DNA from: a virus
IMG/VR virus record: IMGVR_UViG_3300030202_000115
Span: 1-29,047 of that record
DNA: 29,047 nucleotides
Strand: one strand, 5' to 3'
The notes under the pieces were generated by a model. It was not told the origin of the DNA, did no database searches, and was given only the letters and a program-made list of their open reading frames with translations. The translations under genes were made by a program, and so were the position numbers. Positions 3,580-19,413 of this stretch are shown here, piece after piece. Positions within the stretch are counted from its first letter, which is position 1. Every line of letters begins with the position of its first letter.

Positions 3580-3840
3580 ATGGCAATAGAAAACGTACAA
3601 CAATTATTAACAGAGCAACTAGGTAAAAACGGAGGAACAGAAGTATTTACAGGCGCAGTATCAGGAAAAGATTTTTATGCAGTATATTTTCCTGTAGAAA
3701 GTGCAGTAAGTGCAATAACTGCTTCAGGTGTAACTAATGCAACAGCTTTACAAACTACACTACCTGCAGGAACAACTTTACTGATGGGTATTCAAGCTAT
3801 GACACTAACAAGCGGTATAGCAATAGGGTATAAAGAGTAA
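3580..3840 (+). CDS. Small hypothetical structural protein
   Basis: An 86-residue protein (MAIENVQQLLTEQLGKNGG) rich in Ala, Thr and Val. It has an amphipathic N-terminal helix followed by short beta-like stretches. Its stop codon overlaps the ATG of the next gene by one base, indicating translational coupling. The composition resembles small capsid or tail accessory proteins. No family is recognised. Confidence 0.6.
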   Translation: MAIENVQQLLTEQLGKNGGTEVFTGAVSGKDFYAVYFPVESAVSAITASGVTNATALQTTLPAGTTLLMGIQAMTLTSGIAIGYKE

Positions 3841-4520
3841 TGAAAGTATTTAGGCTAGGATTAAGTTTATCGTCTATGCAAAAGTATGGTGCGTGGTCAC
3901 CTTCTGACGAAACAGGTTTAGAAGCGTGGTATAAATATCAAACAGGAATTACTTTAAATGGTTCTGATGTTTCTGCTTGGGCTGATAGTTCTTCTAATAG
4001 TTTTAATATGGTACAAGCTACAGCAAGCGAGCAACCTGCTTACAATTCAGGAGCTATTGACTTTGACGCTTCAGCTACACAAAATTTAGGTTCAGCAAGT
4101 GACATTACTTTAAGCGGTGCTTTTACAATAGGAATAAGATTAAACCCTGCTTTAAATAATGTAGTTGTGCTAGGTGATAATTCTTTAGGTGAAAACGAAT
4201 TTATTAAATTAACAAATAGTACAAAGTTAAGAATGAAAATTGACAATACTACAGCAGATATTACTGTTAATAGCGGTGACTTGACAGCAGACAATTATCT
4301 AGTTATAACAAGAAACGCATCTAACTTACTTACGCTTTATGTTAATGGTGTAGCACAAACTGATACAGAAACTTTAGGGGGAACTGCAAATATGGACGCA
4401 ATAGGAGTAAGAGCAACAGACGCAAACCCTTATGACGGAACAATTAGCGAAGTACAAATATATGATACAGAAAGCGCAGCACTTACAGCTAATGTAAATA
4501 CTTATTTATCAAACTTATAA
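3840..4520 (+). CDS. LamG/concanavalin-like structural protein
   Basis: A 226-residue protein. From about residue 25 it reads as a LamG/concanavalin A-like jelly roll: TGLEAWYKYQTGI, later WADSSSNSFNMVQ, a YLVITRNASNLLTLYVNGV strand pair, then DAIGVRATDANPYDGTISEVQIYD near the C-terminus. Phages use such domains as carbohydrate-binding decorations on heads or fibres. It is coupled to the small gene before it and lies just before the portal, so a head or neck decoration that touches host polysaccharide is plausible. The fold call is by pattern; the ligand is unknown. Confidence 0.65.
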   Translation: MKVFRLGLSLSSMQKYGAWSPSDETGLEAWYKYQTGITLNGSDVSAWADSSSNSFNMVQATASEQPAYNSGAIDFDASATQNLGSASDITLSGAFTIGIRLNPALNNVVVLGDNSLGENEFIKLTNSTKLRMKIDNTTADITVNSGDLTADNYLVITRNASNLLTLYVNGVAQTDTETLGGTANMDAIGVRATDANPYDGTISEVQIYDTESAALTANVNTYLSNL

Positions 4521-15800: not shown

Positions 15801-16394
15801 ATGAAACAACAAGTTAAGATAAGTAAAGTAAAGGGAAACCCTAACAACCCTAGAATAATTAAAAACGATAAGTTTAAAAAGCTAGTAAAGTCAATACAAG
15901 AATTTCCTGAAATGTTAAAGCTAAGACCTATTGTAGTTGATGAAGAAATGATTGTCTTAGGTGGCAATATGAGATTGAAGGCAAGTAAAGATGCAGGGCT
16001 AAAAGAAGTATGGATTGAAGTAGCAGAAGGACTTACTGAAGAACAAAAGAAAGAATTTATAGTTAAAGACAATGTAGGCTTTGGAGAATGGGAATGGGAT
16101 ATGTTAGCTAATGAATGGGATAGCGTACAACTTGCTGAATGGGGTTTAGATGTATGGCAGAATGAAGATGATATTGAAACAAGTGATGAGTTTACTTTAC
16201 CTGATGGAGAAAAAAGCAACTTAGAGCAAATAACATACACACTAAGTAGTGAGCAAAGCAATATAATAAAAGAAGCTGTACAAGAAATAAAATACACAGA
16301 GGATTATAAGTATGTAGAAACTTACGGAAATGAAAATAGTAATGGTAACGCTTTATATTTACTAATAACAGAATGGAGAAAAACAAACAGTTAA
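15801..16394 (+). CDS. ParB/sulfiredoxin-like domain protein
   Basis: A 197-residue protein. Residues 1-90 match the ParB N-terminal fold: NPNNPRIIKNDKFKKLVKSIQEFP, RPIVVDEEMIVLGGNMRLKASKDAG. GGNMRLKA takes the place of the ParB box II GERRxRA, which binds nucleotide and phosphate. Residues 90-130 (EFIVKDNVGFGEWEWDMLANEWD) are typical of phage ParB-like proteins that often stand beside or fused to DNA methylases. Here its gene overlaps the first Mom-like gene by 22 bases, pointing to joint work in DNA modification or in choosing sites to modify. It could act as a nuclease or CTP-dependent switch; the sequence does not decide. Confidence 0.75.
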   Translation: MKQQVKISKVKGNPNNPRIIKNDKFKKLVKSIQEFPEMLKLRPIVVDEEMIVLGGNMRLKASKDAGLKEVWIEVAEGLTEEQKKEFIVKDNVGFGEWEWDMLANEWDSVQLAEWGLDVWQNEDDIETSDEFTLPDGEKSNLEQITYTLSSEQSNIIKEAVQEIKYTEDYKYVETYGNENSNGNALYLLITEWRKTNS

Positions 16395-17071
16395 AAGACA
16401 TAAAAGTAAAGATAATAGATAGTAAAACTGCAAAAAGATATACTATTGAAAATCATTACATGAAAACTTTTCCAATTCCAAAAGTATGCTTTGGAGTTTT
16501 CTATAATAAATTATTAAGAGGGGTTGTAACATTTGGATTAAGTCCTAGTACAGAACAAAAAGTAAAAAAAATAGTTCCTAAAATTAACGATAATGAATTT
16601 ATAGAAATGCAAAGAATGAACCTCTCAGATGTTTTAGGTCATAATGCAGAAAGCTATGTATTGGGAAAAATATATAAACTTTTCAAAGATAATACGAAAA
16701 TAAAATTATTGCTAACACACGCGGGAGGTTGTAAAAATGATTGTGGTATTGTTTATCAAGCTAGTAGTTGGCTATATTTTGGAAAAGAAGTATGTAATGA
16801 TTTTTATCAAACTGTCAAAGGTGAATACAAAAATATTATTTCTCCTATGCGTTTTGGTAGAGTTCCAAGAGAGGTGGTAAAACTAGGAAGTCAAAAAGTA
16901 GGAGAGTTTTTATTTGGTTCAGGAAACATAGTAAATTCTTTCAGATATTTGTATATTTACCCTTTAAATAAAGGGATAAGAAGTTATTTAGAAAAAAAAT
17001 GTCTAGATTATCCTAAAGATAGTCAAGTGTTTAGAAAAAATCAAGAATGGATAACAGGGGGTGACCAATAG
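16373..17071 (+). CDS. Mom-like GNAT-fold DNA modification protein (copy 1, divergent)
   Basis: A 232-residue protein related to the copy that follows. Shared positions run along the whole core: an SK-A stretch then a HY pair (residues 17-29), a FGVFYNKLLRGVVTFG strand pair (40-55), NEFIEMQRMNLSDVL (75-90), and AGGCKNDCGIVYQASS (117-132). This is the pattern of the Mom family, which in phage Mu converts adenine in DNA to N6-carbamoylmethyladenine to block restriction. It is more divergent than copy 2: LLTHAGGCKND replaces SFADGTQCGDG. It overlaps the ParB-like gene by 22 bases. Its last codons and stop lie in the 5' part of a mini-tRNA-like RNA (17057-17104). Confidence 0.7.
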   Translation: MEKNKQLKDIKVKIIDSKTAKRYTIENHYMKTFPIPKVCFGVFYNKLLRGVVTFGLSPSTEQKVKKIVPKINDNEFIEMQRMNLSDVLGHNAESYVLGKIYKLFKDNTKIKLLLTHAGGCKNDCGIVYQASSWLYFGKEVCNDFYQTVKGEYKNIISPMRFGRVPREVVKLGSQKVGEFLFGSGNIVNSFRYLYIYPLNKGIRSYLEKKCLDYPKDSQVFRKNQEWITGGDQ

Positions 17072-17104
17072 GGGTATTATGCAGTTCGAACCTGCACACC
17101 TCCA
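17057..17104 (+). ncRNA. Mini-tRNA-like RNA with alanine identity signature
   Basis: Acceptor stem GGGGGTG (17057-17063) pairs with CACCTCC (17097-17103), 7 bp. The T arm TGCAG / CTGCA (80-84 and 92-96 of the 17000s) encloses the canonical T loop TTCGAAC. A73 is at 17104. Where the D and anticodon arms should be there is only AATA-GGGG-TATT (17067-17078), a tiny hairpin. The third acceptor pair is G3:U70 (17059 with 17101), the known alanine identity pair, and A73 agrees with alanine. CCA is not encoded. The 5' strand lies in the last codons of the Mom-like gene. An attachment-site remnant of a tRNA gene is the main alternative, but there is no integrase. Confidence 0.65.
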
Positions 17105-17112
17105 CAAATAAA

Positions 17113-17790
17113 ATGGGGAGAGCAAAAGAAATAATAGTAAAAGTTATAACAAGTAAAGTTGCCAATGCATTTGTAAAGAAACAACACTACTCAGGAAAGG
17201 TTGTGCCTAATAGCACTTTGCATTTTGGTTGCTTTTTAGATAAACGCTTACATGGTGTAATGAGTTTCGGACCTAGCATAAATAAAAAAGGAACAATTAA
17301 TTTAGTAGAGGGAACAGGTTGGAATGAGTTTATTGAATTAAACAGAATGGCTTTTAATGACTTTTTGCCTAAGTATAGTGAAAGCAGATGTATCAGTGTT
17401 GCTATGAAATTAATAAAGAAAAACGCACCTCACATAAAATGGGTGATTAGTTTTGCAGATGGCACACAATGTGGAGATGGAACTATATACAGAGCAAGTG
17501 GTTTTAAATTGGTTGGTATTGCTGAAAATACAGCTTTAAGAATAAACCCTGAAACAGAAAAACCAATGCACGTAATACAAGCACACCATTTAAAAATGAG
17601 TAGTGAGTTTAGAAATTGGAAAGCTTATGAAGGTTATCAGTTAAAGTATATATATTTTATTGATAAGAAAATGGAAAGTAATTTAACTAAACCAATTATT
17701 CCTTTTAGCGAAATTGATAAGATAGGTGCAGGAATGTATAAAGGTGAAAAGATAACATTAAAAGAAAGAAAAGAAAATAAGCGTGATTAG
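17113..17790 (+). CDS. mom-like: Mom-like adenine modification protein (copy 2)
   Basis: A 225-residue protein with the full Mom-family look: VITSKVANAFVKKQHYSG (residues 11-28), LHFGCFLDKRLHGVMSFGPS (36-55), GWNEFIELNRMAFNDFLP (69-86), SESRCISVAMKLIKKN, and the signature SFADGTQCGDGTIYRASGF (113-131). The family uses a GNAT-type fold to add a carbamoylmethyl group to N6 of adenine in phage DNA, which protects it from host restriction; the donor is not fully settled. The basic tail ends with KERKENKRD, whose last two codons (CGT GAT) and stop form part of the tRNA-Gly-like RNA 17781-17852. The terminase genes follow. Confidence 0.8.
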   Translation: MGRAKEIIVKVITSKVANAFVKKQHYSGKVVPNSTLHFGCFLDKRLHGVMSFGPSINKKGTINLVEGTGWNEFIELNRMAFNDFLPKYSESRCISVAMKLIKKNAPHIKWVISFADGTQCGDGTIYRASGFKLVGIAENTALRINPETEKPMHVIQAHHLKMSSEFRNWKAYEGYQLKYIYFIDKKMESNLTKPIIPFSEIDKIGAGMYKGEKITLKERKENKRD

Positions 17791-17852
17791 CATATACAGT
17801 AATGCGTTGGCTATTCCAAGTCAAAGAAGGGGTGCAATTCTACCATCACGCT
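17781..17852 (+). tRNA. tRNA-Gly(UCC)-like gene, non-canonical
   Basis: A 72-nt cloverleaf. Acceptor GCGTGAT / ATCACGC is 7 perfect pairs; T8 A9 come next; the D arm GCAT / ATGC has loop ATACAGTA without the GG pair; the anticodon stem TTGGC / GTCAA holds an 8-nt loop TATTCCAA that gives anticodon TCC when U33 is 17814. The T arm is weak (two mismatches), with loop TGCAATT keeping T54, C56, A58 but G at 55. T73 is at 17852. G1-C72, C2-G71, U73, C35 and C36 are bacterial glycine identity elements. Loss of GG in the D loop and TGC in the T loop are hallmarks of tRNA-Gly that do not serve translation in staphylococci. CCA is not encoded. Confidence 0.6.
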
Positions 17853-17870
17853 CTAATATAACATTGAAAA

Positions 17871-18224
17871 ATGGAACAAAATAGAACAAAGATTAACAAA
17901 GAGAGATTGCTCAAAGCTTTAGAGTCAAGTCTAGGAGTAATAACTACTGCTTTAAAAGCAACTGACCTAAGTAGAACAAACTTTTATAAGTGGCTAAAAG
18001 AAGATGAAGAATTTGCAGCAAAGGTTGAGGAAATAGAAAACATACAGCAAGATTTTATTAAGTCAAAGTATTATGAGTGCGTAAAAGACAAAGTGCCTTC
18101 AGTTGTAATACACGCAGCTAAGACTAGACTTGGATGGAATGAAACAAACAGAGTAGATATAACGTCAGGTGATAAAGCAATTAATATGCCTGTTATAACA
18201 TTTGTTGAAACTGATACTGAATAA
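17871..18224 (+). CDS. terS: Terminase small subunit
   Basis: A 117-residue protein with an N-terminal HTH (LLKALESSLGVITTALKATDLSRTNFYKWLKED, about 13-45), a helical middle for oligomerisation (FAAKVEEIENIQQDFIKSKYYECVKD) and a short tail, as in phage small terminases. It recognises the packaging site and hands DNA to the large subunit. It lies directly upstream of the large subunit and overlaps it by about 20 bases. A phBC6A51/terminase-type HTH family is likely. No unusual features. Confidence 0.8.
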   Translation: MEQNRTKINKERLLKALESSLGVITTALKATDLSRTNFYKWLKEDEEFAAKVEEIENIQQDFIKSKYYECVKDKVPSVVIHAAKTRLGWNETNRVDITSGDKAINMPVITFVETDTE

Positions 18225-19413
18225 GAAATACAATCCGTTATTTTCTTCTGATGCTCGTTACTTTATAATAACAGGCGGTAGAGGTTCTGGCAAGTCTTTT
18301 GCTGTAACAGTCTTTTTAACTTTGCTTACTATGACTAAAGGGATTAGAATACTCTTTACTCGTTTTACAATGACATCAGCCCACCTTTCAATTATTCCTG
18401 AGTTCTTAGAAAAGATAGGGCTACTTGGTTTTGATGAAGTCTTTAGCATAAATAAAGCAGAAGTAGTAAACATAAAAAATAATTCAGACATTCTATTTAG
18501 AGGAATTAGAACATCAGCTGGTAACCAAACAGCAAGTCTAAAGTCATTACAGGGAATAAGCACTTGGGTATTAGATGAAGCAGAAGAATTAGTTGACGAG
18601 AATATCTTTGACACTATTGATTTAAGTATTAGAGAAAAGAACATACATAATAGAGTAGTATTAATATTAAACCCCGTTACTAAAGAACATTGGATATACA
18701 AAAGATTTTTTGAGGAAAAAGGCGTTGAAGGTGGTTTTAACGGCTTTAAGGACAATATATGTTATATACACACCAACTACCGAGACAACAAAGAAAACCT
18801 CTCACAGAGCTTCCTAGAGCGTATTAAGAGCATAAAGCACAGAAACTTTAAAAAGTATCAGCACAAAATCTTGGGCGGTTGGTTAGATAAAGCCGAAGGG
18901 GTAGTGTTTGAGAATTGGTCAATAGGAGAATTTAACCCTGACGGACTACAGACATCTTGCGGTATGGACTTTGGCTTTAGTGTTGACCCTGATAGCCTTA
19001 CAGAAGTGGCTATTGATAAAAGAAAGCGTAAGATATATTTAAAAGAACATATCTATAAAAATGGATTGAAGTCAAACGAACTGGCTAAGATTATTTTAGA
19101 TAAAGTAGGTAATAAACTTATCATAGCTGATAGTGCAGAGCCTAGACTTATTGCAGACCTTAGACACTTAGGGGTAAATATCAAACCTGTAAAAAAAGGA
19201 ACTATTGAAAGTGGAATTACTCGTATGCAAGACTATGAACTTATAATAACTCCAGAAAGCACTAATATAGCTAAAGAGCTAAACAATTATATATACGCTG
19301 ACAAAGGTTCTAAACTTTATGTAGATAACTACAATCACGCAATTGACGGTGTTAGATATAATGTAATATACCACCTAGACAATCCAAACGCTGGTAAGTA
19401 TTACGTACAGTAA
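18202..19413 (+). CDS. terL: Terminase large subunit
   Basis: A 403-residue packaging motor. Walker A GGRGSGKS (residues 25-32) and Walker B WVLDEAEE (122-129) form the ATPase. The nuclease domain has GMDFGFSVDPD (254-264), IIADSAEP (about 307-314) and an Asp in NHAIDGVRY near 387, the metal-binding acidic residues of the RNase H-like fold. The type resembles the PBSX/Terminase_3 family. There is no ATG: TTG at 18202 or 18205 overlaps the small-subunit gene, so translational coupling is likely. It closes the modification/packaging block before a TCTATTATATA motif. Confidence 0.93.
   Translation: MLKLILNKKYNPLFSSDARYFIITGGRGSGKSFAVTVFLTLLTMTKGIRILFTRFTMTSAHLSIIPEFLEKIGLLGFDEVFSINKAEVVNIKNNSDILFRGIRTSAGNQTASLKSLQGISTWVLDEAEELVDENIFDTIDLSIREKNIHNRVVLILNPVTKEHWIYKRFFEEKGVEGGFNGFKDNICYIHTNYRDNKENLSQSFLERIKSIKHRNFKKYQHKILGGWLDKAEGVVFENWSIGEFNPDGLQTSCGMDFGFSVDPDSLTEVAIDKRKRKIYLKEHIYKNGLKSNELAKIILDKVGNKLIIADSAEPRLIADLRHLGVNIKPVKKGTIESGITRMQDYELIITPESTNIAKELNNYIYADKGSKLYVDNYNHAIDGVRYNVIYHLDNPNAGKYYVQ

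Follow-up and report, generated by a model that had tools for sequence, protein, structure and literature searches.

Two Mom-family genes of a phage cassette are each paired with a tRNA-like RNA, a candidate aminoacyl donor for DNA modification

The virus record IMGVR_UViG_3300030202_000115 of IMG/VR, whose full length of 29,047 nucleotides (nt) is referred to here as the window, carries two paralogous genes, mom1 and mom2, that encode GNAT-fold enzymes of the Mom DNA-modification family, and the 3′ end of each gene is overlapped by the gene of a small tRNA-like RNA. The RNA at the end of mom1 (RNA1) possesses the identity elements of a bacterial tRNA-Ala, and the RNA at the end of mom2 (RNA2) possesses those of a bacterial tRNA-Gly. 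Among relatives, the RNA type tracks the Mom clade, the alanine type accompanying Mom1 and the glycine type accompanying Mom2 and a third clade, Mom3, and the RNAs are found almost nowhere else. We propose, with a probability that we put at roughly 0.8, that the RNAs are dedicated, non-decoding aminoacyl acceptors that donate to the neighboring Mom enzyme, which modifies adenine in the phage DNA. The initial annotation of the window had interpreted the RNAs as aminoacyl donors to Mom, and the comparative sequence analysis supports that interpretation.

Results

The initial annotation had described a tandem of Mom-like GNAT paralogues. Both open reading frames are present on the plus strand, mom1 at 16373–17071 (232 amino acids) and mom2 at 17113–17790 (225 amino acids). 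Their products matched the Pfam Mom family (PF25680; curated cut-off, 27.1 bits) at 131.1 bits (E = 5.5e-38) and 170 bits (E = 6.5e-50), respectively, and the PHROGs profiles also place both proteins in the Mom family (PHROG 1384). AlphaFold (AF2) models of Mom1 and Mom2 had predicted local distance difference test (pLDDT) scores of 87.5 and 91.3, and Foldseek searches of the PDB with these models returned as the top match Mom of phage Mu (8bv8, the inactive S124A form), with E values of 1.3e-12 for Mom1 and 2.1e-19 for Mom2. The PDB matches ranking after 8bv8 were ordinary, coenzyme A (CoA)-dependent GNATs, with no Fem proteins among the best. The S122-E-S124 segment of Mu Mom aligns to SES in Mom2 and AES in Mom1, and the serine equivalent to S124 is kept in both. 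In a tree of 14 Mom1, 75 Mom2 and 8 Mom3 rows, the three groups formed separate clades (support 100/100, 100/99 and 100/100), with Mu Mom as the sister of the Mom2 clade (95/78). Members of the Mom3 clade are 22–31% identical to Mom1 and Mom2 and match Pfam Mom with E values of 1e-28 to 1e-39.

RNA1 (17057–17105, plus strand) is an alanine-type acceptor minihelix of the sequence GGGGGTG-ACCAATAGGGGTATTA-TGCAG/TTCGAAC/CTGCA-CACCTCC-A; it overlaps the final 15 nt of mom1 and ends 7 nt before mom2. The acceptor stem (17057–17063/17097–17103) includes the G3.U70 pair at 17059/17101, and the 16-nt stretch that links it to the T-arm (17080–17096) contains a short 3-bp hairpin, ACC/GGT (17064–17066/17073–17075). 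A73 is at 17104 and C74 at 17105. The anticodon arm is absent, as it is in 17/17 aligned sequences. The alanine identity set of bacteria consists of A73, G2-C71, G3.U70 and G4-C69 (PMC9976931, Table 1), and RNA1 has all four; the further alanine element G20 is not applicable to RNA1, which has no standard D-loop. In the alignment of 17 sequences, G3.U70, A73 and G2-C71 each occur in 17/17, and position 4-69 is G4-C69 in 15/17 and G4.U69 in 2/17. The detector with which RNA1 was sought set no G.U requirement at 3-70, and divergent forms at loci L071 and L291, where ACCA is encoded, also hold G3.U70. The alanine identity assigned to this RNA at the outset thus holds. The 17 relatives showed pairing in 98.8% of cells and 52 two-sided changes versus 15 ± 3 in shuffled alignments; pairing of the acceptor stem and T-arm was itself a selection criterion for this alignment, the unbiased part of which is the sequence identities. 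A covariance model of RNA1 (R2) scored the window at 72.8 bits (E = 1.1e-13) and matched 35/100 loci. RNA1 also matched the Rfam model of transfer-messenger RNA (tmRNA) over 51 nt (17057–17107), with the internal domain absent, at 24.1 bits (E = 1.4e-7), which is under the gathering score of 47. This match suggests descent from, or convergence on, the tRNA-like domain of tmRNA or a tRNA-Ala.

RNA2 (17781–17852, plus strand; GCGTGAT...ATCACGC-T) is a glycine-type cloverleaf that overlaps the final 10 nt of mom2. Its acceptor stem is at 17781–17787/17845–17851, its D-arm at 17790–17805 and U73 at 17852. The anticodon arm (17807–17824) can be drawn with a 6-nt loop, ATTCCA, on a 6-bp stem or with an 8-nt loop on a 5-bp stem, and in the T-arm (17829–17844) an A at 17842 bulges from the 3′ side of the stem. 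The bacterial glycine identity set is U73, G1-C72, C2-G71, G3-C70, C35 and C36 (PMC9976931, Table 1). RNA2 has all of these elements, the assignment of C35 and C36 depending on the conserved CC within the irregular loop. Among 35 relatives, G1-C72 and C2-G71 are each found in 35/35 and G3-C70 in 34/35, and U73 and the anticodon-loop CC are invariant; the glycine identity first read from the window is therefore complete there and near-invariant among its relatives. In the same alignment 734/735 cells are paired (99.9%), with 225 two-sided changes versus 59 ± 7 in shuffled alignments. Pairing is 100% in the D stem and 99.5% in the anticodon stem, neither of which had a part in sequence selection, and both sides of these stems change. 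A covariance model of RNA2 (R1) scored the window at 72.2 bits (E = 1.7e-17) and matched 91/100 loci.

A glycine detector restricted to straight 5-bp T-stems gave almost no real matches, which exposed the bulged A as a conserved feature. Among 160 distinct RNA2 sequences, the anticodon loop is even-sized in 65, and U33 is missing from many others; in most, the loop departs from the 7-nt form with U33. In several lineages RNA2 is reduced to 64–66 nt, and such forms give poor cloverleaf scores. The criteria of a canonical decoding tRNA, a 7-nt loop with U33 and a straight 5-bp T-stem, do not describe RNA1 or the RNA2 of the window, whereas the hosts' own tRNA-Gly genes, in genomes that also carry RNA2, have the canonical form. 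A U73-CCA 3′ end is encoded in 34/160 distinct RNA2 forms, and in 66/160 the RNA lies antisense to mom. The antisense placement indicates a separate transcription unit rather than a terminator or a part of the mRNA. In a few forms, A73 replaces U73; two of these also encode CCA (L255, ~3840–3918, in a metagenome-assembled genome (MAG) of Saccharibacteria; L052, 3642–3712). These two RNAs resemble the archaeal type of tRNA-Gly and may track the type of glycyl-tRNA synthetase (GlyRS) of the host. A different RNA was seen 3′ of Mom2 in a Tenericutes MAG (L253, ~3735–3795): it is tRNA-like, with a D-arm and a T-arm but without an anticodon arm, has the acceptor stem GTGATGA/TAGTCAC (one mismatch), A73 and an encoded CCA, shows neither glycine nor alanine identity, and is perhaps specific to another amino acid.

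On the window alone the support for the two RNAs is weak. Single-sequence folding of either was slightly better than that of shuffled sequences (z ~ −2), and neither ARAGORN nor Rfam at the gathering score called RNA1 or RNA2 in the window, nor did ARAGORN call a tmRNA there. A single window is therefore insufficient, and it is comparison that settles the reality of the RNAs. The window's own sequences were included in the seed alignments of R1 and R2, and the E values of these custom models are rough. R1 also matches canonical host tRNA-Gly at 44–59 bits and does not separate it from RNA2 below ~60 bits; for this reason our claims of linkage are based on position, bulge and pattern and not on score alone. 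With these limits, the covariance models and compensatory changes confirm that a tRNA-like fold lies over the 3′ end of each mom gene, as had been annotated, and sequence comparison confirms RNA1 and RNA2 as real, conserved tRNA-like RNAs.

The linkage of the RNAs to Mom was observed from both the protein side and the RNA side; many of the loci are near-identical contigs, so that the following counts are not independent events, and greater weight lies in the breadth over clades and phyla. A protein-side search placed RNA2 at the end of Mom2 in 125/146 loci with a strict detector, and in more with the covariance model. RNA1 accompanies Mom1 in 38 loci; only three Mom1 loci are discordant, all of them on contigs cut inside mom1. 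RNA1 was found once with no Mom1 call, at L101, which is the remaining half of a contig cut in this way. Of the 14 Mom1 rows of the tree, all but one have the alanine RNA at a distance of 400 bases or less, and that one has it farther away. Exact-pattern scans of IMG/VR for the RNAs only gave 30 RNA1 and 120 RNA2 matches, of which 146/150 lie beside Mom (29/30 RNA1 matches within 29 bases and 117/120 RNA2 matches within 274 bases). The lone RNA1-pattern match away from Mom (L127) lacks the acceptor stem and was rejected as chance, and the three RNA2-pattern matches without Mom are at most ~260 bases from an end of the stored stretch. Expressed per megabase, the detector rate near Mom versus elsewhere was 639 versus 5.8 for RNA2 and 152 versus 0 for RNA1. 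The Mom3 clade itself surfaced through the RNA-only scans and has RNA2 at its end too; at one Mom3 locus, besides the RNA paired with the Mom3 gene, a second glycine-type RNA (L179:7321–7392) is located ~2.3 kb from that pair. Where the initial annotation had allowed that the folds might not be conserved beside Mom-like genes of other phages, the covariance and pattern searches showed strongly the opposite.

In the window, the mom genes and RNAs form part of a cassette that begins with a gene for a protein with a ParB-like N-terminal domain (15801–16394, plus strand). Its product matches PHROG ParB/methyltransferase families with E values of 1e-23 to 1e-26, and its match to Pfam ParB_N (E = 2.3e-5) is slightly under the cut-off. 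The boundary at the other end is the gene of the terminase small subunit, terS (17871–18224, plus strand; PHROG terminase small subunit, E = 1.9e-5), which starts 18 nt after RNA2 and is followed by the gene of the terminase large subunit (18202–19413, plus strand; Pfam Terminase_3, E = 9.7e-31). All genes from the ParB-like gene through the terminase large subunit are co-directional, and there is no integrase at the locus.

A ParB gene is present in 29/30 RNA2-pattern loci with long flanks. ParB relatives were searched alone (80 loci) to part a link with Mom from a link with ParB. A matching RNA was found in 28/30 ParB loci with Mom1, Mom2 or Mom3, versus 0/45 real RNAs at ParB loci without Mom (p ~1e-18), where the detector gave one spurious match (L339) and R1 matched 0/40 tested. 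One of the two Mom-positive, RNA-negative loci is a contig cut inside mom2, and one further ParB locus, cut inside mom1, was left out of the count. An assignment of the RNA to the upstream ParB gene was considered and rejected, because ParB loci without Mom carry no RNA. Near-identical phages, compared with positions 15801–17852 of the window, have other alleles at the Mom site: a fusion of ParB and an N6 methyltransferase (L351:3501–4715) in one case and a TET-associated glycosyltransferase (L328:4225–5070) in the other, each before a near-identical terminase gene. Alternative modification genes at a single ParB–terS site indicate a swappable DNA-modification cassette, in which the RNAs are gained and lost together with Mom.

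The pair of RNA2 and Mom is found in phage contigs, in prophages and in many MAGs, over many phyla and in two deep Mom clades. The prophages include those of Bradyrhizobium, Gallibacterium anatis DSM 16844, Rodentibacter caecimuris ATCC 12555, Larkinella knui, Limnohabitans and Micavibrio. The cultured Psychrobacter phage vB_PmaS_Y8A carries two tandem RNA2 copies, with CCA encoded, between Mom and terS, an arrangement that points to a transcription unit of their own; the genome paper of Y8A reports zero tRNA genes (PMC10434257). At the end of the Y8A genome there is a second, very divergent Mom gene with no adjoining RNA (L246:2492–3256). In Clostridia, L259, L261, L262, L264 and L266 have a tandem of Mom2 genes and a single RNA, of the glycine type, which follows the second gene; the bulged T-stem base of this RNA is U in place of A in L259, L264 and L266. 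A match in the Methylophilales phage Melnitz-1 (L394:991–1064) was rejected, being an irregular tRNA-Trp(cca)-like gene ~1 kb upstream of a Mom-like gene.

Discussion

What was observed directly comprises the genes, the RNAs with their conservation and identity elements, the specificity with which these are linked to Mom, and the setting among DNA-modification genes. From these, we infer that the RNAs are transcribed and charged and act as donors, by the following chemistry. Host alanyl-tRNA synthetase would charge RNA1 with alanine, host GlyRS would charge RNA2 with glycine, and a host enzyme would add the CCA end where it is unencoded. Mom, as a GNAT-fold transferase, would then transfer the aminoacyl moiety carried at the 3′ terminus of the RNA to the exocyclic N6 of adenine, and the modification would shield the phage DNA from restriction. 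The T-stem bulge and the irregular loop may keep charged RNA2 off EF-Tu and the ribosome. Conservation in RNA1 and RNA2 is highest at the identity elements, which favors charging, as far as sequences can indicate it.

The base made by Mu Mom was reportedly identified as purin-6-yl-glycinamide by Swinton et al. in 1983, and the same base would be the product of the glycine enzyme. The adduct, C2H3NO, is equal in composition to a single glycine residue (57.021 Da), so that no source of atoms other than glycine is needed. N6 acyl transfer would give N6-glycyl-adenine, and attack of the α-amino group on C6 through a five-membered intermediate (a Smiles-type shift) would convert this to the Mu base; the rearrangement is chemistry that we infer. 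The alanine enzyme would yield the homologue at +71.037 Da, and one phage would thus install two modifications. Mom enzymes without an RNA, such as that of Mu, would draw on host Gly-tRNA.

Several considerations weigh against this proposal. The donor role is a proposal argued from sequence comparison. A GNAT fold alone normally suggests an acyl-CoA donor; the donor of Mu Mom is not established, and an acyl-CoA such as glycyl-CoA is assumed in the literature (PMC7824862). Acyl transfer by itself would stop at N6-glycyl-adenine, so that a rearrangement or other chemistry is required, and GlyRS may not read identity elements placed in an irregular anticodon loop. The distribution is also imperfect: no RNA adjoins mom in 12 distant Mom loci checked (Mu and 11 others, including those of Pseudomonas JD024, P12002L, Listeria A511 and PX29), at least six Mom2 loci (in Clostridia, Enterococcus, Prevotella and L044) have no RNA within 300 bases, and the tandem Mom2 pairs of Clostridia share a single RNA.

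One could envision four alternative roles or origins for the RNAs. The alternative that survives best, although we consider it unlikely, is that a charged or tRNA-like RNA serves as a sensor, decoy or target, for example as a charging-dependent switch of mom, as a decoy for a defence system that attacks tRNAs, or as the substrate of Mom. Adjacency suits regulation as much as it suits catalysis, and mimics of tRNA are often used as decoys. However, the frequent antisense placement rules out a simple cis-element, a decoy has no need to follow the Mom clade or to disappear when a methyltransferase replaces Mom, and Mu Mom acts on DNA.

Distinctly less probable is that these are ordinary phage tRNA-Gly and tRNA-Ala genes that aid phage translation and lie by chance beside mom. 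RNA2 is certainly similar to tRNA-Gly, given that ARAGORN names a few of its relatives as tRNA-Gly and that R1 also matches host tRNA-Gly. On the other hand, RNA1, which lacks an anticodon arm throughout its alignment, is unable to decode, and the bulged T-stem, irregular loop and shortened forms of RNA2 set it apart from the canonical tRNA-Gly genes of the hosts. The linkage to Mom, and loss along with Mom, are also unexpected of a translational tRNA. Marginally less probable still is that the uncharged RNA acts as a guide or scaffold, a specificity or structural subunit of a Mom complex. The strict pairing of one RNA type to one enzyme type would suit such a role, but the conserved bases are the aminoacylation determinants and the discriminator, some RNA2 forms encode the U73-CCA end, and no variable guide segment was seen. 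Finally, chance folds, terminators or attachment-site remnants, to which the modest single-sequence z-scores might have pointed, are refuted by the covariation, by the enrichment near Mom, by the occurrence in both orientations and by the missing integrase.

We therefore return to the RNAs as aminoacyl donors to Mom and compare this proposal with known systems. The Mom proteins of the window have in common with Mu Mom, which makes N6-carbamoylmethyl-adenine ("momification"), the Pfam family, the fold and the S124 region. Mu has no tRNA-like RNA beside mom, whereas the two paralogues in the window come from different clades and are each paired with a separate RNA. FemXAB/MurM and Leu/Phe-tRNA-protein transferase are GNAT-like enzymes that use aminoacyl-tRNA outside translation; their acceptor is a peptide or a cell-wall precursor, whereas the proposed acceptor of Mom is a DNA base. 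Staphylococci possess a dedicated, non-proteogenic tRNA-Gly with features that keep it off the ribosome. The tRNA-like domain of tmRNA shares with RNA1 an acceptor stem and T-arm, the alanine-type G3.U70 and the lack of an anticodon arm, but RNA1 has only ~49 nt, no mRNA-like region and no tag. Bacterial tRNA-Gly and tRNA-Ala share acceptor-stem and discriminator identity elements with RNA2 and RNA1, and differ from them in the anticodon arm, which is missing in RNA1 and irregular in RNA2, and in the T-stem, which is bulged in RNA2. Glycine hypermodification of phage cytosine by CmoX/CmoY has been described, and ParB-domain genes were surveyed in those neighborhoods (PMC12783734). That system uses free glycine and ATP, an amide ligase and a carboxymethyl handle on cytosine; it involves neither an aminoacyl RNA nor adenine. 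In the PMC literature, with bioRxiv and subscription papers thinly covered, we found no report that links Mom or DNA modification to aminoacyl-tRNA.

We also think it probable, though with less confidence than we have in the donor role in the window, that the whole Mom family, Mu included, uses an aminoacyl-tRNA donor, that many phages supply a non-decoding charged RNA of their own for it, and that some, the phage of the window among them, run two orthogonal pairs, producing glycine- and alanine-derived adenine in one genome. If the proposal is true, it explains why an RNA gene overlooked by standard annotation, as in Y8A, is conserved, a new base consisting of adenine and an alanine residue is predicted, and the RNAs would be minimal tRNA mimics that are orthogonal to the ribosome. 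The decades-old question of the origin of the Mom modification would be answered, and a charged RNA of the translation machinery would be the cofactor of a DNA modification, a kind of system of which, to our knowledge, no example is known.

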